Program-made: the position numbers and the translations under genes
Shown: one piece after another, positions 24,637 through 33,987 of the stretch
How the letters are laid out: every line of letters starts with the position of its first letter
How positions within the stretch are numbered: the first letter of the stretch is position 1
Assembly (NCBI RefSeq): GCF_030149425.1
Contig: NZ_JASBRQ010000002.1
Coordinates: 1 to 64,000 of the forward strand
Length of the DNA: 64,000 nucleotides
From: Maricaulis sp.
GTDB taxonomy: Bacteria > Pseudomonadota > Alphaproteobacteria > Caulobacterales > Maricaulaceae
Direction of reading: 5' to 3'
The notes under the pieces: model-generated
What the model was told of the DNA's origin: nothing
Databases searched by the model: none
The model's input: only the letters and a program-made list of their open reading frames with translations

Positions 24637-25260
24637 CTACTTTTTGGCTGCGCGCACCGCATGGCGGCTGCGAAGCAGATCGATGCAATCATCCAGGCTG
24701 AGATCGCGCGACTCGAGCAGGACCATGAGGTGGAAGAGCAGATCTGCGGCTTCCCCGACCAGCGCCTCATCATTTTCCGAGACCGCGGCCATAGCCACTT
24801 CGACGCCCTCTTCACCGACTTTTTGCGCCGGTTTTTTCGGCGCCTTGGCCAGCAGGTCACCGACATAGGAGCCCTTGGGCTTCTCCTTGCGGCGCTTCTT
24901 GATGATCGACCGCAGATGGGCGAGGAAACCCAGTCCCGGCGCCGGGTCATCGCCGAAGCAGGACACAGTGTCGAGATGACAGGCCGGGCCTTTCGGCTTG
25001 ACCTCGACCAGCAGGGTATCGGTATCGCAATCGGCGCTGATCCTCACCAGCTTGAAGGTATTGCCCGAGCTCTCCCCCTTCATCCACAGCCGTTGCTTGG
25101 TGCGGCTGAAGAAGTGGACTTTCTTGGTCTCCTGTGTCTTCTCGAGCGCTTCGGCATTCATGTAACCGAGCATGAGAACCTGGCGCGTCGCCACATCCTG
25201 AATAATCGCCGGGATCAGGCCGTCGACCTTCTCCCAGTTCAGAGACTTCACCTTGATCAT
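24637..25260 (-). CDS. hisIE: Bifunctional phosphoribosyl-AMP cyclohydrolase / phosphoribosyl-ATP pyrophosphatase
   Basis: 207 residues: HisI domain at about 1-115 ([25 protein letters not shown] with metal-binding Asp and Cys residues, at positions 77-101) and HisE domain at about 116-207 ([31 protein letters not shown]). It catalyses steps 2 and 3 of histidine synthesis. Last his gene; its ATG overlaps the hisF stop in ATGA. Confidence 0.96.
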
Positions 25261-26024
25261 GGCCGAATCGAAATCCCCTCGGCGATCAGATAGGACTTCA
25301 ATTCGCCTATACCGATCAGACTTTTATGAAAAACGCTGGCAGCCAGCGCGGCATCCACATTGGCGCGTTCGAAGACGGTTTTGAAGTGGTCTTTTCGCCC
25401 GGCCCCGCCAGAGGCCACCAGAGGCGTCGGACAGATTTCCCGGGCCGCAGCGAGCTGATCAATGTCATAGCCATCGCGCACCCCGTCCTGGTCCATGCAG
25501 TTGAGCACGACCTCGCCGGCACCGCGATCAATTCCCTCGCGCAGCCAGTCCAGCGTATTGCGGCCAGCCAGCTGGGTCTTGTCCGGATCACCGGTGTATT
25601 GGTGCACCCGCCAATCGCCTTCGATCGTCTTGCTATCGACCCCGAGCACAACACACTGGCTGCCGAATTCGCGCGCCAGCGCGTCGATCAGCTCAGGGGT
25701 CTCAAGCGCCGGTGAATTGATCGAGATCTTGTCCGCTCCGGCGAACAATCGTGCCCGCGCATCATCAACAGAGCGAATACCGCCAGCGACACAGAACGGG
25801 ATGTCGATGACCGACGAGACCGCACTGATCCAGGCCGGCTCCACCGTGTCACCGCGGGCACTGGCGGCAATATCGTAGAAGACCAGCTCATCGGCGCCCT
25901 CTTCGGCATAGCGCGAGGCCAGGGCGACAATATCGCCGACATCCTCGTGATCCCGGAAACGCACGCCCTTGACGACACGGCCGTCACGGACGTCGAGGCA
26001 GGGGATTATGCGCCGCGCGAGCAT
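25257..26024 (-). CDS. hisF: Imidazole glycerol phosphate synthase, cyclase subunit
   Basis: A 255-residue (beta/alpha)8 barrel with the two catalytic aspartates Asp11 ([10 protein letters not shown]) and Asp130 (VLGVDSKT) at the canonical positions. It uses ammonia from HisH to form imidazole glycerol phosphate and AICAR. The ATG at 26024 overlaps the hisA end by 19 bases; the frame extends 22 codons further but the [15 protein letters not shown] start matches the family. Confidence 0.97.
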
Positions 26025-26740
26025 GCCAGAGCCTCCTCCAGGGTGAATTTGCCTTCGTAAATGGCGCGGCCCGTGACCGCACCTGCACAACCGGCATCGC
26101 GCAAGGCTTCGAGGTCGGCAAGGGATGACACACCACCGGAGGCCTGCCAGTCGACATCGGGATATTTGCGCATGAGACGGGTATAAAGCTGGCCGTTGGG
26201 ACCGCTGAGATCGCCGTCACGGGCGATATCGGTCACGAGGCCATGCTGTAGATCACTGCCCGCATAGGCGGCAATCACATCGTCGATTGTCACGGTCAGG
26301 ACATCGGTCCATCCGCGCACAGCCGGACGATAATCGCCATTGATGTACTGCACGTCGAGCGCCAGCGTGATGCGCTCAGCCCCGAACCGGTCAAGCCAGG
26401 GCAGAACCGTCTCGGGCTGGGTAATCGCAAGCGAGCCGATCACGACGCGGCTGACGCCCATATCGAGCAGAGCCTCGATGTCCGCGGTTTCGCGGACACC
26501 GCCGCCGGCCTGGACCTCGATGCCCGTAGCGGCGATGGCCTCGATGGCAGCGGACTGGCCGCGCTTGCCGTCGCGCGCACCGGCCAGGTCAACGACATGG
26601 ATCCACTCACTGCCCGCGGTTTTGAAGGTCTCCGCGACGGCGCCGGGATTATCGCCATAAACGGTGACGGCGTTGAAATCGCCCTTGAGCAGACGAACGA
26701 CGCCGCCGTCCAGCAGATCGATGGCGGGATAGAGAATCAT
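26006..26740 (-). CDS. hisA: Phosphoribosylformimino-AICAR ribotide isomerase
   Basis: A 244-residue TIM-barrel isomerase with Asp8 in [14 protein letters not shown] and the second catalytic Asp near 129 ([10 protein letters not shown]). Fourth step of histidine synthesis. Its ATG overlaps the hisH stop (ATGA), and it overlaps hisF downstream. Confidence 0.97.
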
Positions 26741-27336
26741 GCGTCCAGCTCCGCGAAATTCTTCAGGATTTGCGCTCCGGCAGTAGCCGAGCGTTCAGGG
26801 TGGAATTGGCAGCCCCAGACATGCCCCTGGCGCACAATGGCGGAACAATCAGCGCCATAGGACGTGGACGCCAGGGTGTAGGAGCCGACCGGGGCGTAAA
26901 AACCGTGCACGAAATAGACGTACTCCCCGGGCTTGATACCGCCGAGCAGCGGATCATCCGGACTGCGCAGATCGAGCGTGTTCCAACCCATATGCGGCCA
27001 GACACTTCCCGCTTCACGCGGCAATTTCTCTACGGCGCCATCGATCAGGCCGAGGCAGTCGATATCGTCTTCCGCAGACCGGCTGAACAGGAGCTGCATG
27101 CCCAGACAGATACCCATCAGGGGACGGGTATCGCCGGCCAGCACCTCAGCCCAGCCGCTACGTTCCAGCTGCTCCATCGCCGGTCGGGCCGAACCAACGC
27201 CGGGCAGGATCAGACGATCGCAGTCAGCAAGGTCATCCGGGGTCACGCCGGTCCGGTAATCCAGACCGGCACGCTCCAGTGCGAAACGGACCGATGCGAG
27301 ATTGGCGCAACGCGTATCAATCAGCCCGATCGTCAT
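26737..27336 (-). CDS. hisH: Imidazole glycerol phosphate synthase, glutaminase subunit
   Basis: A 199-residue class I glutamine amidotransferase. The nucleophile Cys77 is in MGICLGMQLL, and the His-Glu pair is in CQFHPERS near the C terminus. It supplies ammonia to HisF. The ATG overlaps the hisDB stop in ATGA. Confidence 0.96.
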   Translation of the reverse strand: MTIGLIDTRCANLASVRFALERAGLDYRTGVTPDDLADCDRLILPGVGSARPAMEQLERSGWAEVLAGDTRPLMGICLGMQLLFSRSAEDDIDCLGLIDGAVEKLPREAGSVWPHMGWNTLDLRSPDDPLLGGIKPGEYVYFVHGFYAPVGSYTLASTSYGADCSAIVRQGHVWGCQFHPERSATAGAQILKNFAELDA

Positions 27337-29231
27337 GCCAGGTGCTCCTTGGTTGACGGCAGGCGGTCACCTTCAACACGCACGGCCTGACGCAGGGCCC
27401 GGCCAAAGGCCTTGAACGAGCCTTCGATCATGTGGTGGGCATTCTCGCCCTCGACTTTGACATGGATGGCCGCCTTCAGGCTTTCCGCTATGGAGCGGAA
27501 GCAATGGGCAGTCATTTCGACCGGGAATTCACCGACGCTTTCGCCCGGAATATCGCCTTCGAACTTGGCAAACGGCCGTCCGGACAGGTCGATCCAGACC
27601 CCGGCGCGGGTTTCGTCCATCGGCACTTCAAATCCGAAACGGGCGATGCCGCGCTTGTCGCCGAGCGCCTCACCCAGCGCCTCGCCAAAGGTCAGGCAGA
27701 CATCCTCGATGGTGTGGTGCGCATCGATTTCCAGATCACCTTCAACAGAAACCCGCAGCGCGATACCGGCGTGCCGCGCGATCTGATCCAGCATGTGGTC
27801 GAAATAGCCCACCCCCGTATCGATCTGGCTGGGACCGTCCTGGTCGAGATTGATCGACACTTCGACATCGGTCTCGGCGGTCTTGCGCCGCTTTGCCGCC
27901 GCACGAACCGTCGGCTTGGTCTGTTCGACGCGCTGCGCCTCGGCCGCCTCGCGCCGCAGGCGCATGGCCAGGGCATGGGCATCCAGCCCTTCGATTTCTG
28001 CCAGGCGCTCAACCGTGGGCGCAATCCGGCGCGCACCGTCGGCCGTCGCACGTAAAATGGTCGTGGTCTTCTGAAACGCCTCGACCGTTACCCCGCCATA
28101 AGCCCGCGCCGCACCGCCGGTCGGCAAGGTGTGATTGGGGCCAGCAGCATAGTCACCGGCGGCTTCCGGGGTCCAGGCACCGACGAAAATCGAACCGGCA
28201 TGGCGGATCATTCCGACCAGTTCCTCCGCCTCGGCGGTCTGGATAATCAGGTGCTCGGCCGCGTAGGCATTGGCGACCTCAGCCATACCCGCACGCGACC
28301 CGCAAACAATACTGCGTGACTTGGCCAGGGCGGCGCGGGCAATCTCGGCGCGCGGCAAGCTCTCAAGCTGAGCTTCTATCGCGGTGAGAAAACGCGCATT
28401 ATTATCGGCATTATCAGTGACCAGAATGACCTGAGCATTGGGATCGTGCTCGGCCTGGCTCAGCAGGTCGGCGGCAACGAAATCGGCGCGCGCCGTGGCA
28501 TCTGCAACAACCATCACCTCGCTCGGGCCAGCTGGCAAATCCGTCCCCGGACCTCCCGGCAGAGCCGAGACATAGGCCTTGGCCGCAGCAACATAGGCAT
28601 TGCCCGGGCCGTAGATCTTGTCCGCGCGCGGCAAGCCGGCGGCTCCGGTAGAGAGCGCTGCAATCGCCTGCGCACCGCCGATCGCGTAAACTTCATCAAG
28701 GCCGAGCAGGCCGGCTGCGCCGAGAACGGTCTCATTGAGCTTGCCATCCGGTCCGGGCGGGCTGACCACCACGATGCGCGGCACCCCTGCCAGCTGCGCC
28801 GGTACGGCCAGCATGATCAGGGTTGAGACCAGAGGCGCCGACCCGGCCGGCACATAGAGCGCGGCGACATCAACCGGGCCGGCCCTGCGGCTGGCCGTCA
28901 GACCGGGCCAGGTTTCAACGGCGTACTCGCTATAGCCCTGGCGGACGTGAAAACGACGAACCGCATCGGCCGCGGACTTGATCGCCTCCTTGTCCTGCGC
29001 GGATAAAGCATCACGCGCCGCCCGGATGTCGTCTGCAGCAATACGGAAATCCTGCGGAGCGTGCCCGTCCAGTTTTTCGGCGTAGGACCGGACCGCATCG
29101 CCGCCCTTGGCCCGGATCGCATCGACGATCTCTCGGGCAGCCGCATCCGCGGCGCCGGTCTCGGCCGGCCGCGCCAGAGCCGCCTCGCGGGCTGCGGCGT
29201 CGGCCTCGTCCCAGTTGATAGTCCTCAACAT
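27333..29231 (-). CDS. hisDB: Fused histidinol dehydrogenase - imidazoleglycerol-phosphate dehydratase
   Basis: A single uninterrupted 632-residue frame. Residues 1-428 are HisD, with zinc ligands Gln259, His262, Asp360 and His419 and catalytic Glu326-His327 at exactly the E. coli numbering. Residues about 445-632 are HisB, with DHMLDQIARH (His479), DAHHTIED (505-510) and ENAHHMIEGSFKAFGRALR (597-615), the metal-binding blocks of the dehydratase. The joint (about 425-445) is charged and Ala/Arg/Lys-rich, and keeps no start codon with an RBS for HisB alone. It catalyses the last two oxidations of the pathway (HisD) and step 6 (HisB). The operon order G-D-B-H-A-F-IE equals E. coli G-D-C-B-H-A-F-I without hisC, so loss of hisC could have joined the two genes. 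Confidence 0.95.
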   Translation of the reverse strand: MLRTINWDEADAAAREAALARPAETGAADAAAREIVDAIRAKGGDAVRSYAEKLDGHAPQDFRIAADDIRAARDALSAQDKEAIKSAADAVRRFHVRQGYSEYAVETWPGLTASRRAGPVDVAALYVPAGSAPLVSTLIMLAVPAQLAGVPRIVVVSPPGPDGKLNETVLGAAGLLGLDEVYAIGGAQAIAALSTGAAGLPRADKIYGPGNAYVAAAKAYVSALPGGPGTDLPAGPSEVMVVADATARADFVAADLLSQAEHDPNAQVILVTDNADNNARFLTAIEAQLESLPRAEIARAALAKSRSIVCGSRAGMAEVANAYAAEHLIIQTAEAEELVGMIRHAGSIFVGAWTPEAAGDYAAGPNHTLPTGGAARAYGGVTVEAFQKTTTILRATADGARRIAPTVERLAEIEGLDAHALAMRLRREAAEAQRVEQTKPTVRAAAKRRKTAETDVEVSINLDQDGPSQIDTGVGYFDHMLDQIARHAGIALRVSVEGDLEIDAHHTIEDVCLTFGEALGEALGDKRGIARFGFEVPMDETRAGVWIDLSGRPFAKFEGDIPGESVGEFPVEMTAHCFRSIAESLKAAIHVKVEGENAHHMIEGSFKAFGRALRQAVRVEGDRLPSTKEHLA

Positions 29232-29240
29232 GTCCGGCCC

Positions 29241-30122
29241 CTATGCCAACATTTTCTCGATCGGGAGCACCAAGATGGCGCGCGCGCCCTCGGCTTCAAG
29301 CGCTTCAAGCGTCTCCCAGAACACACGCTCGCGACACACGGCGTGCAGCGCCACGACATCTTCACGTCCAGCGATTTGCGCCACCGTCGGGGCATCGGCG
29401 CCCGGCAACAGGGCCTTGATCGCTTCCAGGCGATCAACCGGCGCATTCATCATGATGTATTTGGTCTGGGCCGAGGCGATCACGCCCTGTGCCCGGCGCA
29501 TCAGGATAGACGCGATCTCGTCTTTGGCCGGATCGCGGTCCTGCGCCGGACGGATCATCACGGCTTCCGAGTTCAGAACGGTCTCGAACGCGCCCAGGCC
29601 GTTGGCCTCGAGCGTTGCGCCGGACGAGACGAGATCACAAATCGCAGCGGCAATATTGAGACGCGGTGCGACTTCGACCGAGCCGTGCATCTCGACAATC
29701 TCGGACACCACACCGCGCTCGCGCAGATAGGCATCAGTGATGGCCGGATAGGATGTCGCGATGGCCTTGCCGGCAAGGTCCTGTATCGAGGCGATCTCGC
29801 CCCCCTTAGGCGCGGCGAGCTTCAGCGTGCACTTGGCAAAACCGAGACGCAGAGCGACTTCTAGTTCCCGGGCGCGGCGACCGGCAAGCTGTTCTTCCTT
29901 GAGCACATTCTCACCGACAATGCCGTAATCGCAGGCACCGGACGCTACGAAGTTGGGAATATCATCATCGCGCACCAGCATGAGATCGACCGGCATATTC
30001 TCGGCGCTCTGATGCAGCTTGTCGCGCCCATAGGCGAAGCGGAGGCCGCAACGCTTGAGCAGGTCCATTCCGCCCTCGGACAGGCGGCCTTTGCTTTGAA
30101 CGGCAATACGCAGACGGGTCAC
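29241..30122 (-). CDS. hisG: ATP phosphoribosyltransferase, long form
   Basis: A 293-residue enzyme starting the pathway by joining ATP and PRPP. Its length and C-terminal extension (about 220-293) correspond to the long, E. coli-type HisG with a built-in ACT-like regulatory domain for histidine feedback; this agrees with no hisZ being present here. Key blocks are VQSKGRLS, DYGIVGENVL and the PRPP loop region EVAPRLNIAAAICDLVSSGATL (positions about 153-174). Its ATG overlaps the yerC stop by four bases, and hisDB follows after 9 bases. Confidence 0.95.
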   Translation of the reverse strand: MTRLRIAVQSKGRLSEGGMDLLKRCGLRFAYGRDKLHQSAENMPVDLMLVRDDDIPNFVASGACDYGIVGENVLKEEQLAGRRARELEVALRLGFAKCTLKLAAPKGGEIASIQDLAGKAIATSYPAITDAYLRERGVVSEIVEMHGSVEVAPRLNIAAAICDLVSSGATLEANGLGAFETVLNSEAVMIRPAQDRDPAKDEIASILMRRAQGVIASAQTKYIMMNAPVDRLEAIKALLPGADAPTVAQIAGREDVVALHAVCRERVFWETLEALEAEGARAILVLPIEKMLA

Positions 30123-30418
30123 GAGCTTTTTTCCTTCAACCGGTCGAGAATGAGACGGTAGCCCTGGTGGGGCTCCTGGGTCAGAAAACGCGATACGCGG
30201 GTAACCGTGGTCGTACTCGCCCCGGTCATTTCGCTGATCTCACGATAGGAATGACCGCCCTCATCCAGCAGGCAGGCGACCCGCCAGCGTTCCGAAAGCG
30301 TCTTGATTTCGCCCGGGGTCAGGAGATCACGCAAAAAGCGATCAGCCTCATCACGCGTTTGCAAACGCAATAGCGCTTCAGACAGGGCATCGAGATCAGT
30401 CAGGGTGGTTTCCGTCAT
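30119..30418 (-). CDS. YerC/YecD-family TrpR-like regulator, first gene of the his operon
   Basis: About 99 residues with a TrpR-like helix-turn-helix: LLTPGEIKTLSERWRVACLL (family signature) followed by YREISEMTGASTTTVTRVSR. Proteins of this family are small DNA-binding repressors; linkage to hisG suggests control of histidine synthesis, but the effector is unknown. The start is uncertain between ATG 30418 and an ATG four codons upstream at 30430; neither has a strong RBS. The operon promoter should lie in 30431-30530, shared divergently with the ArsR gene. Confidence 0.85.
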   Translation of the reverse strand: MTETTLTDLDALSEALLRLQTRDEADRFLRDLLTPGEIKTLSERWRVACLLDEGGHSYREISEMTGASTTTVTRVSRFLTQEPHQGYRLILDRLKEKSS

Positions 30419-30533
30419 TATACCGCACATCTTCTGTTCGGGATGCGATATAGCGTGTTATCGCGCTAACACAATAACGCATTGCAGCAGGACTGGCGGT
30501 TGATCCGATTCCGGCTTATATTGCAGAACTGTT

Positions 30534-30553
30534 AGCTATGAACTTGCATAGGT
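30534..30553. promoter_or_regulatory. Operator-like inverted repeat in front of the ArsR/BigR-like gene
   Basis: AGCTATGAACTTGCATAGGT is 16/20 identical to the sequence at 31300-31319 between the rhodanese and hydrolase genes, and the last ten bases (TTGCATAGGT) are identical. Both have partial dyad symmetry. The shared sequence at both promoters of this locus suggests that the repressor encoded here binds it. Confidence 0.6.
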
Positions 30554-30558
30554 ACGCA

Positions 30559-30864
30559 ATGAATTATCGCGACATGCTGCCGGTCGCTGAAGACCTTGCG
30601 GAAGTAATGAAAACCCTCGCCCATCCAAGCCGCCTGATGGCGCTATGTGCAATGATGGATGAGGAAGTCGCTGTCGGACAACTGGCCGAGGCGGTCGGAC
30701 TGCGCCCCCAAGCCATGTCGCAGCAATTGGCGATCCTGCGCAATAAGGGCCTGGTCACGACCCGCCGGGAGGGGCAGACGATTTATTATGCCCTCGCCGA
30801 CGATCAGATCCGGCAATTAATGCAGGCGCTCTACCAGACCTATTGCCTGCCCGCGCAGTCCTAG
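30559..30864 (+). CDS. BigR/SqrR-like ArsR-family repressor, probable persulfide sensor
   Basis: A 101-residue winged-helix protein from the ATG at 30559. The HTH is AVGQLAEAVGLRPQAMSQQLAILR, given by positions about 38-61, and the wing is TTRREGQTIYYAL. Two cysteines (Cys30 and Cys96, 66 residues apart) match in context and spacing the pair of BigR/SqrR that forms a tetrasulfide link on exposure to persulfide. An upstream ATG at 30538 would add seven residues but lies inside the operator-like repeat; 30559 has AGG six bases upstream. The adjacent rhodanese, persulfide dioxygenase and SulP genes support the role. Its stop shares CTAG with the convergent rhodanese gene. Confidence 0.85.
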   Translation: MNYRDMLPVAEDLAEVMKTLAHPSRLMALCAMMDEEVAVGQLAEAVGLRPQAMSQQLAILRNKGLVTTRREGQTIYYALADDQIRQLMQALYQTYCLPAQS

Positions 30865-31262
30865 CCGCGGGTCAGCAAGAAAAGCACGACCAGCACCGCA
30901 ACGAAGCCGCCGACGATCCAGGGCGCCAGGCTGCCTTGCTTCTCGGCGCGGACGGTTTCAAACCCCGCCGCCTTCCAGGCCATGATCCCGCCGCCCAAAT
31001 GACCGGCAAGCGTGCGGCCTGCCGCTGCCGCCTGGGCAAACGCCCGAGCCGACCGGCCACCCGAGCGACAAGACAAGACGACGTCCTTGCCTTCACCTTC
31101 CGGAATGGCGGAGACATCAAAACTTGAAAGTGGATTGAGGATCGCACCGGGAATATGCTCGGCCTCATACTCACCCGCCTCACGCACATCGACCAGGATC
31201 AGCCGGTCCGCGTCCAACCCCTCCTTGACCTCTTGCGGCGTGAAATCTCTCGGCTCGCTCAT
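30861..31262 (-). CDS. Membrane-anchored rhodanese
   Basis: 133 residues: a single rhodanese domain (about 5-100) with the active-site loop CRSGGRSARA (Cys near residue 67), and a C-terminal transmembrane anchor (WIVGGFVAVLVVLFLLTRG). It should carry sulfane sulfur as a cysteine persulfide at the membrane surface. The ATG at 31262 has GGGAG seven bases upstream; an upstream ATG at 31298 lacks one. It is divergent from the hydrolase gene and shares the operator-containing intergenic region. Confidence 0.88.
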   Translation of the reverse strand: MSEPRDFTPQEVKEGLDADRLILVDVREAGEYEAEHIPGAILNPLSSFDVSAIPEGEGKDVVLSCRSGGRSARAFAQAAAAGRTLAGHLGGGIMAWKAAGFETVRAEKQGSLAPWIVGGFVAVLVVLFLLTRG

Positions 31263-31299
31263 TGCTTGCTCCCGGGATATTGTCTTGTTGAGTCGCATT

Positions 31300-31319
31300 A
31301 CCTACGTATTTGCATAGGT
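31300..31319. promoter_or_regulatory. Second copy of the BigR-like operator, between rhodanese and persulfide dioxygenase genes
   Basis: ACCTACGTATTTGCATAGGT has perfect 5-bp outer arms ACCTA / TAGGT and is 16/20 identical to 30534-30553. It sits 38 bases upstream of the rhodanese start and 52 bases upstream of the hydrolase start, so it could control both. Confidence 0.62.
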
Positions 31320-31370
31320 CTGCACAAAAGGATAAACCTGTTCCGGTTCCCGGCAAGTCAAAAAAACTCC

Positions 31371-32240
31371 ATGCAACACCTTCCCGACGTCAAAGCCTTC
31401 TTCGATCCCGACACATATACGGTCAGCTATATCGTCTCCGACCCGGACACCGGCGCGGCGGCGATCATTGACTCCGTGCTCGATTACGACCCGGCTTCCG
31501 GGCGCACCCAGACCCGCTCGGCCGACGCCATTATCGCCGATGTCGAGGAGCGCGGGCTGAAAGTGGAGTGGATCCTCGAGACCCATGTCCACGCCGATCA
31601 CCTGTCCGCGGCGCCCTATCTGCGCGAGCGGCTGGGCGGCCGGATCGGCATTGGCGAACATGTCAAACAGGTCCAGGGCGTGTTTGGTGACCTGTTCAAT
31701 GTGGAGCCAGGCTTCTGCCGCGACGGATCCCAGTTTGATCACCTGTTCACCGATGGCGAGACCTTCAAGATCGGTTCGATCGAGGCCGAGGCGATCTGGA
31801 CCCCGGGCCATACCCCGGCCTGCATGGTCTATCATGTCGGCAGTGCCGCCTTTGTCGGCGACACGCTGTTCATGCCCGATTTCGGCACGGCGCGCTGTGA
31901 CTTCCCTGGCGGCAATGCCCACACGCTGTATCGCTCGATCCAGAAGATCTTTGCCCTGCCGGACGAGACAAGTCTGTTCATGTGTCACGATTACAAGGCT
32001 CCGGGGCGCGACCACTACGCCTGGGAAACCACGGTCGCCGAGGAAAAAGCGGCCAATATCCATGTCCATGAGGGCGTCAGCGAGGATGATTTCGTCGCCA
32101 TGCGCGAAGCGCGGGACGCCAAGCTCTCCATGCCGACGCTGATCCTGCCCTCCGTGCAGGTCAATATGCGCGCCGGCGATCTGCCGGAGGCGGAGGATAA
32201 TGGCACGCGCTATCTCAAAATACCGCTGAACGCCGTCTGA
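31371..32240 (+). CDS. blh: Persulfide dioxygenase-like metallo-beta-lactamase hydrolase (Blh/ETHE1 type)
   Basis: A 289-residue metallo-beta-lactamase-fold protein. It has the metal motif THVHADHLSA, TPGHTPACM, VGDTLFMPDFGTARCDFPGG and CHDYKAPG, the pattern of ETHE1 and of Blh in BigR operons. Members oxidise glutathione persulfide to sulfite using a mononuclear iron. Start at ATG 31371 (MQHLPDVKAFFDPDTYTVSY); a long upstream extension would cross the rhodanese promoter. No strong RBS. One base separates its stop from the SulP start. Confidence 0.88.
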   Translation: MQHLPDVKAFFDPDTYTVSYIVSDPDTGAAAIIDSVLDYDPASGRTQTRSADAIIADVEERGLKVEWILETHVHADHLSAAPYLRERLGGRIGIGEHVKQVQGVFGDLFNVEPGFCRDGSQFDHLFTDGETFKIGSIEAEAIWTPGHTPACMVYHVGSAAFVGDTLFMPDFGTARCDFPGGNAHTLYRSIQKIFALPDETSLFMCHDYKAPGRDHYAWETTVAEEKAANIHVHEGVSEDDFVAMREARDAKLSMPTLILPSVQVNMRAGDLPEAEDNGTRYLKIPLNAV

Positions 32241-32241
32241 C

Positions 32242-33987
32242 ATGTTTAAACTGGCCAGGCGCATATTCCCCGGCCTCAACTGGCTGCGCGGCTATAACGC
32301 CCGCCTGTTCGCCGATGATGCCATCGCCAGCGTCATCACGGCCATTCTGCTGATCCCGCAAAGCCTGGCCTATGCCCTGCTGGCCGGTCTGCCGCCGCAG
32401 GCGGGCCTGTACGCCTCGACCACGCCGCTGATCGCCTACGCGCTGTTCGGTTCGAGCCGGGTTCTGGCGGTTGGGCCGGTCGCAGTCGTTTCATTGATGA
32501 CTGCGGCCGCGATCGGAGAGCTCGGCCTTGATGACCCGGCCCAGCAAATGGCCGCGGCCGGCGCGCTGGCGCTCCTGTCCGGCGGTTTCCTGCTGGTGTT
32601 CGGTCTGCTCAATCTCGGCGCCATCGCCAATTTTCTCAGCCGGCCGGTGATCAATGCCTTCATCACCGCCTCCACCCTGCTGATCATCGCCAGCCAGCTC
32701 AAGCATATCCTCGGAGTAGAAGCCTCCGGCGCTACGCTGCCGGAACTGGTCATGTCGATGGCCGGCAATGCCGGCAATATCAACCTGCTCGCGCTGGCGT
32801 TCGGCGCCGGCAGCCTGGCCTTTCTCGTCTTCATGCGTGGCGGTCTGCAGCCGGCCCTGACCGGGCTGGGCGTACCGGCGAATATCGCCGCGACCATCAC
32901 CCGGGCCGCGCCCGCCCTGCTTGTCGTCATCGCGACCCTGATCGCCGCCAGCATGTCGCTGGCCGATCGCAATGGTCTTGATATCGTCGGCGAACTGCCC
33001 ACCGGCCTGCCGCCTGTCCAGCCGCCGCTGGTACCTTTGGAAATCTGGCGAGAACTGCTTGGCCCGGCCGCGCTGATTTCCCTGATCGGTTTTGTTGAAA
33101 GCGTGTCGGTCGGGCAGAGCCTGGCGGCGCGGCGGCGCGAGAGCGTCAACCCGAACCGGGAGCTCTTCGGCCTGGGGGCTGCCAATGCCGCGGCGGCCCT
33201 GACCGGGGGATATCCGGTGACCGGCGGGTTCGCTCGCTCGGTGGTCAATGAGCAGGCCGGCGCCCAAACGCCCCTGGCCGGCGTCTTTACCGCGCTGATC
33301 ATCGCCATCGTCGCAGTTTTCCTGACCCCGCTGTTTTATCATCTCCCCAAAGCCGCGCTCGCTGCCACCATCCTGATCGCGATCTGGAAACTGGCCGATT
33401 TCAAGAGCCTGCGTGAAGCCTGGCGCTATTCCCAGGCCGATGGTGCAGCGGCTTTTCTGACCCTGTTCGGCGTGCTTTTCCTTGGCGTGGAGCTGGGATT
33501 GACGCTGGGTGTGACGGTATCAGTCGGCTCCATCCTGTTGAGGACAATGAAACCGCACTGGGCCCAGGTCGGCCAGGTGCCGGGCACGCACCATTTCCGC
33601 AATCCCAACCGGCATGAGGTGGTTCTGTCACCGCACGTCTACGCCATCCGTGTCGACAGCGCGCTCTACTTCGCCAATGCCCATTTCCTGGAAGATCTGC
33701 TGGCCCAGACCATGGCGGAGCATGAGGGTATTACCGATGTCGTGCTGATGTGCCCGGCGGTGAACTTCATTGACGCGAGCGCCCTTGTCAGCCTGCGCAC
33801 CATCAACCAACGCCTGTCCGATAGCGGGGTGACGCTGCATCTGTCCGAAGTCAAAGGTCCGGTCAATGACCAGCTCATGGCTGCCGGGTTTGGTGACGAG
33901 CTCAGCGGCGAGATTTTCATGTCGCAATATGCGGCCATGCGCACGCTTGATCCGCAAACGACCTTACGGGCCGAGGGCGTCGATTAG
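32242..33987 (+). CDS. SulP-family anion permease with STAS domain
   Basis: A 581-residue inner-membrane transporter. The SulP signature IPQSLAYALLAGLPPQAGLY and the following GPVAVVSLMTAA lie in the first 100 residues, with about 10-12 membrane segments to residue 430. The C-terminal STAS domain (about 440-560) contains AVNFIDASALVSLRTINQRL. SulP proteins carry sulfate, bicarbonate or other anions. Tight linkage to the persulfide dioxygenase suggests export or exchange of sulfite/sulfate, which is inference. Confidence 0.9.
   Translation: MFKLARRIFPGLNWLRGYNARLFADDAIASVITAILLIPQSLAYALLAGLPPQAGLYASTTPLIAYALFGSSRVLAVGPVAVVSLMTAAAIGELGLDDPAQQMAAAGALALLSGGFLLVFGLLNLGAIANFLSRPVINAFITASTLLIIASQLKHILGVEASGATLPELVMSMAGNAGNINLLALAFGAGSLAFLVFMRGGLQPALTGLGVPANIAATITRAAPALLVVIATLIAASMSLADRNGLDIVGELPTGLPPVQPPLVPLEIWRELLGPAALISLIGFVESVSVGQSLAARRRESVNPNRELFGLGAANAAAALTGGYPVTGGFARSVVNEQAGAQTPLAGVFTALIIAIVAVFLTPLFYHLPKAALAATILIAIWKLADFKSLREAWRYSQADGAAAFLTLFGVLFLGVELGLTLGVTVSVGSILLRTMKPHWAQVGQVPGTHHFRNPNRHEVVLSPHVYAIRVDSALYFANAHFLEDLLAQTMAEHEGITDVVLMCPAVNFIDASALVSLRTINQRLSDSGVTLHLSEVKGPVNDQLMAAGFGDELSGEIFMSQYAAMRTLDPQTTLRAEGVD

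Follow-up and report, generated by a model that had tools for sequence, protein, structure and literature searches.

How did HisD and HisB, two enzymes that act at non-neighbouring steps of histidine biosynthesis, come to share a single polypeptide, and why does their joint lie at just the place in the his operon where hisC would be expected? The question is raised by hisDB, a gene of Maricaulis sp. (assembly GCF_030149425.1) on the 64,000-nucleotide stretch analysed here, namely positions 1 to 64,000 of contig NZ_JASBRQ010000002.1 (hereafter the window). In all likelihood, hisDB encodes a working bifunctional enzyme left by the stepwise in-frame erosion of an operon of the form hisGDC(NB)HAF(IE). 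We develop this reading from the gene itself, from relatives that retain HisC at the same place in various states of decay, and from the position of fused and unfused loci in phylogenetic trees.

The fused gene and its two domains

The gene and its parts are laid out in the window as follows:

27333..29231, minus strand: hisDB, HisD-HisB fusion protein; single frame, 632 amino acids, 66.3 kDa
27942..29231, minus strand: HisD (histidinol dehydrogenase) domain, residues 1-430, with matches to Pfam PF00815 and NCBIfam TIGR00069 and the active-site residues
27909..27941, minus strand: junction, residues 431-441, where the HisD C-terminal tail passes almost straight into the HisB N-terminus
27336..27908, minus strand: HisB (imidazoleglycerol-phosphate dehydratase, IGPD) domain, residues 442-632, with matches to Pfam PF00475 and NCBIfam NF002111

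A preliminary description of this DNA, made from the letters alone, had claimed that one 632-residue frame carries HisD and HisB, both complete, and profile searches bear this out. The 632 codons run without an internal stop. The Pfam Histidinol_dh domain (PF00815) extends over residues 27-426 with 465.8 bits, and the NCBIfam hisD model TIGR00069 reaches 464.7 bits against a cut-off of 243.8, which identifies this half as a full-length HisD. On the other side, the Pfam IGPD domain (PF00475) occupies residues 472-613 with 188 bits and with the model covered from position 1 to 144 of 144, while the NCBIfam IGPD model NF002111 scores 237.7 bits against a cut-off of 231. The best-scoring HisB model is that of HisNB (NF003937), with 271.8 bits over model positions 150-353. 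All the residues quoted in the description are present, and alignment to the E. coli HisD structure 1k75 places those of HisD at E. coli-identical numbers, namely Q259, H262, D360 and H419, which we take to be the zinc ligands, and E326 and H327, which are presumably catalytic.

These six HisD residues are unchanged across all 29 aligned fused proteins, as are H479, H576 and, in each of the two HHxxE motifs of HisB, the His and Glu; D478 is replaced by Asn in one protein and E596 is variable. A further locus cut by a contig end (L019) was excluded from this residue table, from the trees and from the scan for internal starts. The distance from H419 of HisD to the Asp of the HisB DHM motif, which is Asn in one protein, is 57-61 residues inclusive in 29/29 fused proteins, a nearly end-to-end spacing that is common to the three groups of fused genomes described below. 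In an AlphaFold2 model of HisDB both halves are folded, with a mean predicted local distance difference test score (pLDDT) of 79.6 and a weak loop at residues 436-440 (pLDDT <50). At the other end of the protein, the window HisDB closes with STKEHLA as against STKG in the consensus of 11 fused proteins; here an AAGGAG preceding hisH sits within the last HisB codons (window 27333-27350), so that coding and possible ribosome-binding sequence overlap.

By homology, the C-terminal HisB half would dehydrate imidazoleglycerol phosphate (step 6) and the N-terminal HisD half is predicted to oxidise histidinol to histidine (steps 9 and 10), with the intervening steps 7 and 8 falling to a HisC and an IMPase-type HisN encoded elsewhere. 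Indeed, the window's own genome, a draft that is 94.91 % complete in 88 contigs, yielded one hit for the full-length protein and no other hit for HisD or HisB; it encodes a HisC on contig C21 (TIGR01141, 313 bits against a cut-off of 276.55) and an IMPase-type HisN on contig C53 (TIGR02067, 289.5 bits against 275.15). Together with HisDB, these therefore furnish a candidate enzyme for each of steps 6 to 10. We considered and rejected the direct hand-over of an intermediate (channelling) between the two halves as unlikely, on the grounds that two steps, 7 and 8, lie in between and depend on enzymes encoded elsewhere.

HisC at the junction in related genomes

The his operon of the window runs in the order trpR-like, hisG, hisDB, hisH, hisA, hisF, hisIE. 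The preliminary description had called this order E. coli-like minus hisC, which stands with the addition that hisN has gone as well. It had further suggested that the fusion may have resulted from the loss of hisC, and the related loci lend this substance, as HisC occurs at that very place in lysine-bearing, lysine-less and vestigial form. In 11 reference loci, mostly from Gammaproteobacteria or Proteobacteria with two from Bacteroidota and one from Rhodospirillaceae, the gene order is hisD, hisC, hisNB. Nearer to the window, 14 of 15 further loci from other genera of its family (f1), a deliberately picked and hence non-random sample, carry HisC and HisB in one frame of 536-561 amino acids after hisD. 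The lysine that binds pyridoxal phosphate (PLP) is kept in all 14 of these HisC-HisB proteins and a PNNPTG-like motif is found by pattern in 12; in one of them (L160) the HisC part attains 309.2 bits against a cut-off of 276.55. The HisB part of L160 also has a short repeated stretch inserted immediately before its MPMDE motif, which could reflect a real insertion or an error of assembly.

A more decayed state is seen in another family of the same order (f4), where eight loci encode a HisC homologue of ~260-300 amino acids that shares its frame with HisB. Its similarity to HisC reaches 6e-31 in blastp and E 3e-38 in hhalign. The PLP lysine is lost in 8/8 of these remnants; it is present in 13/13 reference HisCs and in 17/17 HisCs that lie downstream in f4 operons. 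The latter belong to loci L118-L134, in which a lysine-bearing HisC has been appended after hisIE and the HisC at the old place is decayed or gone; the motif of the downstream HisC resembles that of the window genome's own HisC. Among the eight loci with a decayed HisC, the seven that reach that far (L128-L134) all have such a lysine-bearing copy after hisIE, with the Asn of its NPxNP motif replaced by Ser in three.

Finally, 27 loci present only a short extension of ~180-215 amino acids joined to HisB, with a start that in most cases overlaps the stop codon of hisD; 26 are from f1, including Marinicauda, Woodsholea and Hyphobacterium, and one (L156) is from another family. A profile of 18 extension rows, some representing the same genome twice and 15 of them kept by hhalign, matched the HisC profile (built from 13 of 14 reference loci) in two colinear stretches with scores of 34.1 and 29.0, as against 20.3 for the best of 200 column shuffles. 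Likewise, an AlphaFold2 model computed from eight extension rows (pLDDT 89.3) matches fold-type I aminotransferases in Foldseek, among them E. coli HisC (1gey; E 8.4e-4, probability 1.00, template modelling (TM) score 0.38). The profile comparison, the predicted fold, the position in the operon and the f4 remnants support the view that the extension descends from HisC. A decayed HisN as its source found no support, since the best score against the HisN profile (12 reference loci) was 16.1 and was equalled by 10 of 200 shuffles. We also rejected a UPF0262 gene, as suggested by the 565-665 nucleotide gap between hisD and hisB in sister genera: the frame continues into HisB, and a Pfam scan of eight extensions gave no UPF0262 match.

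The extension itself looks to be under purifying selection. Its ratio of nonsynonymous to synonymous substitution rates (dN/dS) is 0.05-0.40 in 10 of 10 pairs, for which hisD gives 0.06-0.19 and hisB 0.01-0.10, these being simple Nei-Gojobori counts with some pairs near synonymous saturation. Such a pattern suggests that a partner domain has some structural role. Two genomes of a single genus (g4) stand on either side of the decay: L165 has a lysine-bearing HisC-HisB and L166 a vestigial one, with a gap at the PLP-lysine column. L166 is the one short extension aligned residue by residue at this site, and the count of lost lysines given above covers the f4 remnants.

In every one of the 79 loci of this operon type the HisB frame runs open upstream into a partner, and the position of the seam ahead of the HisB core is roughly constant from one state to the next. 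Across the class, HisC-HisB occurs in 7 of 337 sampled genomes, from five families. In five of these seven loci (L176, L177, L180, L181, L182), which come from other alphaproteobacterial families, hisC-hisB directly follows hisG, with no hisD match on the stretch examined, representing a different operon order with the same fusion; in a further HisC-HisB locus (L178) hisF, hisA, hisH and hisB are separated by gaps of ~600-740 bases that may hold other genes. A corresponding search of the phylum sample returned 0/299, which is uninformative as that sample had no known positive. One further locus (L135) has no hisD on its stretch.

Taken together, sequence comparison supports the HisD-HisB joint having replaced an older HisC-HisB joint, with HisC being first fused to HisB. 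We envisage the following course of events. Upon the loss of hisN, HisC might have been brought into one frame with HisB, close to the former junction of HisN and HisB. Given another hisC in the genome, the HisB-joined HisC would then have lost its PLP lysine and shrunk to a vestige, until the final deletion of HisC also removed the stop codon of hisD and left HisB as the C-terminal half of HisD. HisB would have lacked a translation start of its own since the HisNB stage, and once its partner was lost, its one means of survival would have been fusion to the gene next upstream; both this dependence and the time order of the steps we infer from the present-day loci. In a Lachnospiraceae genome (UBA7196, locus L048) hisD and hisB are adjacent but separate where HisB has its own start, which fits such a dependence. 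More tentatively, and with more doubt than confidence, we offer a generalization: HisB might be a translational orphan that is captured by the next upstream gene as each redundant one erodes (N-B, C-B, dead C-B, D-B), a directional ratchet that would create multifunctional enzymes with no need for channelling to be selected. As for the dead HisC, it could have been kept as a structural dimer, to be finally replaced by HisD on a 24-subunit HisB shell.

Distribution, origins and alternative explanations

HisD-HisB was found in all 19 Maricaulis genomes examined, 18 at full length and one cut by the contig end but covering the junction; two of the other fused Maricaulis genomes are single-contig assemblies. 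The closest named relatives among the best 80 of 571 are Maricaulis species at 75 % identity, and the f4 fusions are not among these 80. Outside Maricaulis, the fusion is present in one Hyphobacterium (G048; loci L020 and L039) and in ten genomes of genus g31 of f4, eight of which are among 45 f4 genomes that are at least 90 % complete and two of which came from another search. Of 20 g31 genomes, eight are fused and seven have kept a decayed HisC; in G239 the hisD is of a different type, and the remaining four lacked a match at E <= 1e-40. In f1, no match was obtained from 10 of 137 genomes. With the threshold set at E <= 1e-130, which could miss more divergent fusions, the samples of the window's class and phylum returned no further HisD-HisB: matches were limited to 2 of 385 genomes in the class (its own, fused, and G495, unfused) and to 1 of 398 in the phylum, its own. 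A record named Maricaulis sp. IN14 (L045) is of the unfused, vestigial kind and clusters with Hyphobacterium, not with the fused Maricaulis. Its values equal those of L027 (G043), which belongs to genus group g8 and not to the window's genus, and it is probably a misnamed record.

In trees of HisD alone (73 rows) and of five concatenated proteins (46 and 60 rows, with hisH and hisF missing for some short loci), the fused rows of Maricaulis, Hyphobacterium and f4 are each placed next to unfused members of the clade they belong to. A minimum of three changes between the fused and unfused states is needed on the concatenated tree, and likewise three on that of HisG alone. Constraining all fused rows to a single clade is rejected (p 1.5e-66), as is uniting Maricaulis with f4 (p 1.6e-93); the f4 fused rows may form one clade (p 0.126). 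On the p values of these constraints, the sequences argue strongly for at least two origins of HisD-HisB, and a third, separate origin in Hyphobacterium is probable.

An assembly or sequencing artefact in an 88-contig draft can be taken as refuted by the recurrence of the same frame in other Maricaulis genomes, two of them in single contigs, and in ten genomes of another family. The preliminary description had itself pointed to a stop or frameshift at the junction as a sign against the fusion, and there is none in the 29 full-length fused genes translated nor in the contig-cut one. It had likewise pointed to an internal start for HisB, which bears on the idea that HisDB is split in the cell, by a protease or by internal initiation, into an ordinary HisD and HisB. 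This idea can draw on the predicted flexibility of the junction at 436-440, on an in-frame ATG within the HisD tail in 17 of the 18 Maricaulis loci scanned and on the presence, in 9 of 29 fused loci, of some in-frame start near the junction that has a Shine-Dalgarno-like sequence. However, none of the 17 HisD-tail ATGs has a Shine-Dalgarno-like sequence, and the starts that do are at scattered positions, with none in the window gene; thus, there is no conserved internal start of this kind among the 29 genes scanned, and we hold such splitting to be quite improbable. No better placed, and in our estimate a slim prospect, is a single ancient HisD-HisB fusion that was later split or transferred with its operon. 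It would accommodate the f4 rows as one clade, and Maricaulis plus Hyphobacterium as one clade is rejected at p 0.03 only. It is opposed by the far stronger rejection of the wider clades and would require HisC remnants to have been re-inserted between the two halves.

A different kind of alternative is that the joint was selected for its architecture. IGPD forms a 24-subunit shell of octahedral symmetry, and HisD and HisC are dimers. Structure entries with 24 IGPD chains exist, and 24 copies of a 66.3 kDa chain amount to 1.59 MDa; a particle of ~1.6 MDa is therefore predicted, with 12 dimers on the two-fold positions of the shell, or else a cross-linked network, that might aid stability, dosage or the clustering of the pathway. 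The near-equal joint length across the three fused groups (57-61 residues) agrees with this, as do the upstream-open HisB frame in 79/79 loci and the apparent purifying selection on a decayed HisC (dN/dS 0.05-0.40 in 10/10 pairs), by which a partner domain seems useful without activity. Yet, a constant length would equally be expected if two complete enzymes were joined end to end, and HisB of other types is free in related genera and in L048. We regard selection for architecture as the driver of the fusion as rather unlikely.

The erosion reading must in turn face several points that weigh against it. The enzymatic activity of both halves of HisDB is itself a prediction from their sequences. 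As to the short extension, it had no above-threshold match in Pfam, NCBIfam or the PDB sequences among the members tried; the reversed-alignment control of its profile against HisC scored 22.9; the Foldseek TM-scores are just 0.34-0.53; and its descent from HisC draws on the four lines named above and no others. With respect to the origins, every tree was a quick one without bootstrap, the tree of HisB alone has little resolution (7 of 57 branches starred, five changes), one Maricaulis row (L018) falls outside the other 17 in the HisD tree, and Hyphobacterium, the group rejected only weakly as a clade with Maricaulis, sits on a long branch. Lastly, the absence of free HisB applies to this operon type only, as other f4 genera have a free, more distant type of HisB.

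Operon neighbourhood and comparison with known systems

The other genes of the operon in the window are:

30119..30430, minus strand: TrpR-like regulator, upstream of hisG; Pfam Trp_repressor
29241..30122, minus strand: hisG, directly upstream of hisDB; Pfam HisG and HisG_C
26737..27336, minus strand: hisH, start overlapping the hisDB stop (ATGA)
26006..26740, minus strand: hisA; Pfam His_biosynth, hisA by operon position
25257..26027, minus strand: hisF; Pfam His_biosynth, hisF by operon position, ATG start at 26027 chosen
24637..25260, minus strand: hisIE (fused); Pfam PRA-CH and PRA-PH

The listed open reading frame of hisF opens at a TTG at 26090. Many of the related loci that were mapped likewise have a TrpR-like gene ahead of hisG. 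Beside the operon (window 30538-33987) are genes for an ArsR-type regulator, a rhodanese-like protein, a metallo-beta-lactamase-like protein and a SulP-like transporter, probably a sulfide-handling cluster as judged by eye, with Pfam applied to the ArsR part only.

Fused his enzymes are a standard example in discussions of why genes fuse and have often been taken as evidence of physical association or channelling. Against this backdrop, HisC-HisB and HisD-HisB make up a graded series whose intermediates still exist, among them a decayed enzyme domain joined to a live one, in which the final joint appears to have been made at least twice between enzymes of non-neighbouring steps. They offer a directly testable alternative, namely fusion as a by-product of gene loss within an operon; the two g4 genomes, with the decay falling within one genus, would be worth dating. 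The preliminary description knew of no such enzyme, and neither a HisD-HisB nor a HisC-HisB protein was found described in the open-licence PMC literature, a coverage that leaves out most subscription papers.

Several known systems share features with HisDB. In the HIS4/HisIED proteins of fungi, HisD is also fused to other his enzymes, but there it is C-terminal and joined to HisIE, without HisB, according to PMC1963479; hisIE of the window is a separate gene (24637-25260). That study found no HIS4-like protein in prokaryotes. The heptafunctional his protein of Acanthamoeba likewise has HisD in a multi-enzyme chain, with the IGPD gene being separate, as described in PMC6029752. In Clostridium acetobutylicum, hisD adjoins hisB and hisC is absent from the slot, but PMC3828012 lists them as separate genes, using the string hisD-hisB for neighbouring genes of the operon. 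The Lachnospiraceae locus L048 has this same adjacency, without hisC in the slot, and was rejected as another fusion because a stop codon separates the two genes. A further relative in design is HisNB of E. coli and Salmonella (histidinol-phosphatase/IGPD), in which HisB is likewise the C-terminal half in the same operon slot and whose model outscores the single-IGPD models on the HisB half of HisDB; its N-terminal partner is, however, a HAD phosphatase in place of HisD, and the 271.8 bits of NF003937 fall short of the cut-off of 443. HisC-HisB of related Alphaproteobacteria, the putative precursor, has the slot and the HisB N-terminal joint in common with HisDB and differs in its partner, a HisC that keeps its lysine.

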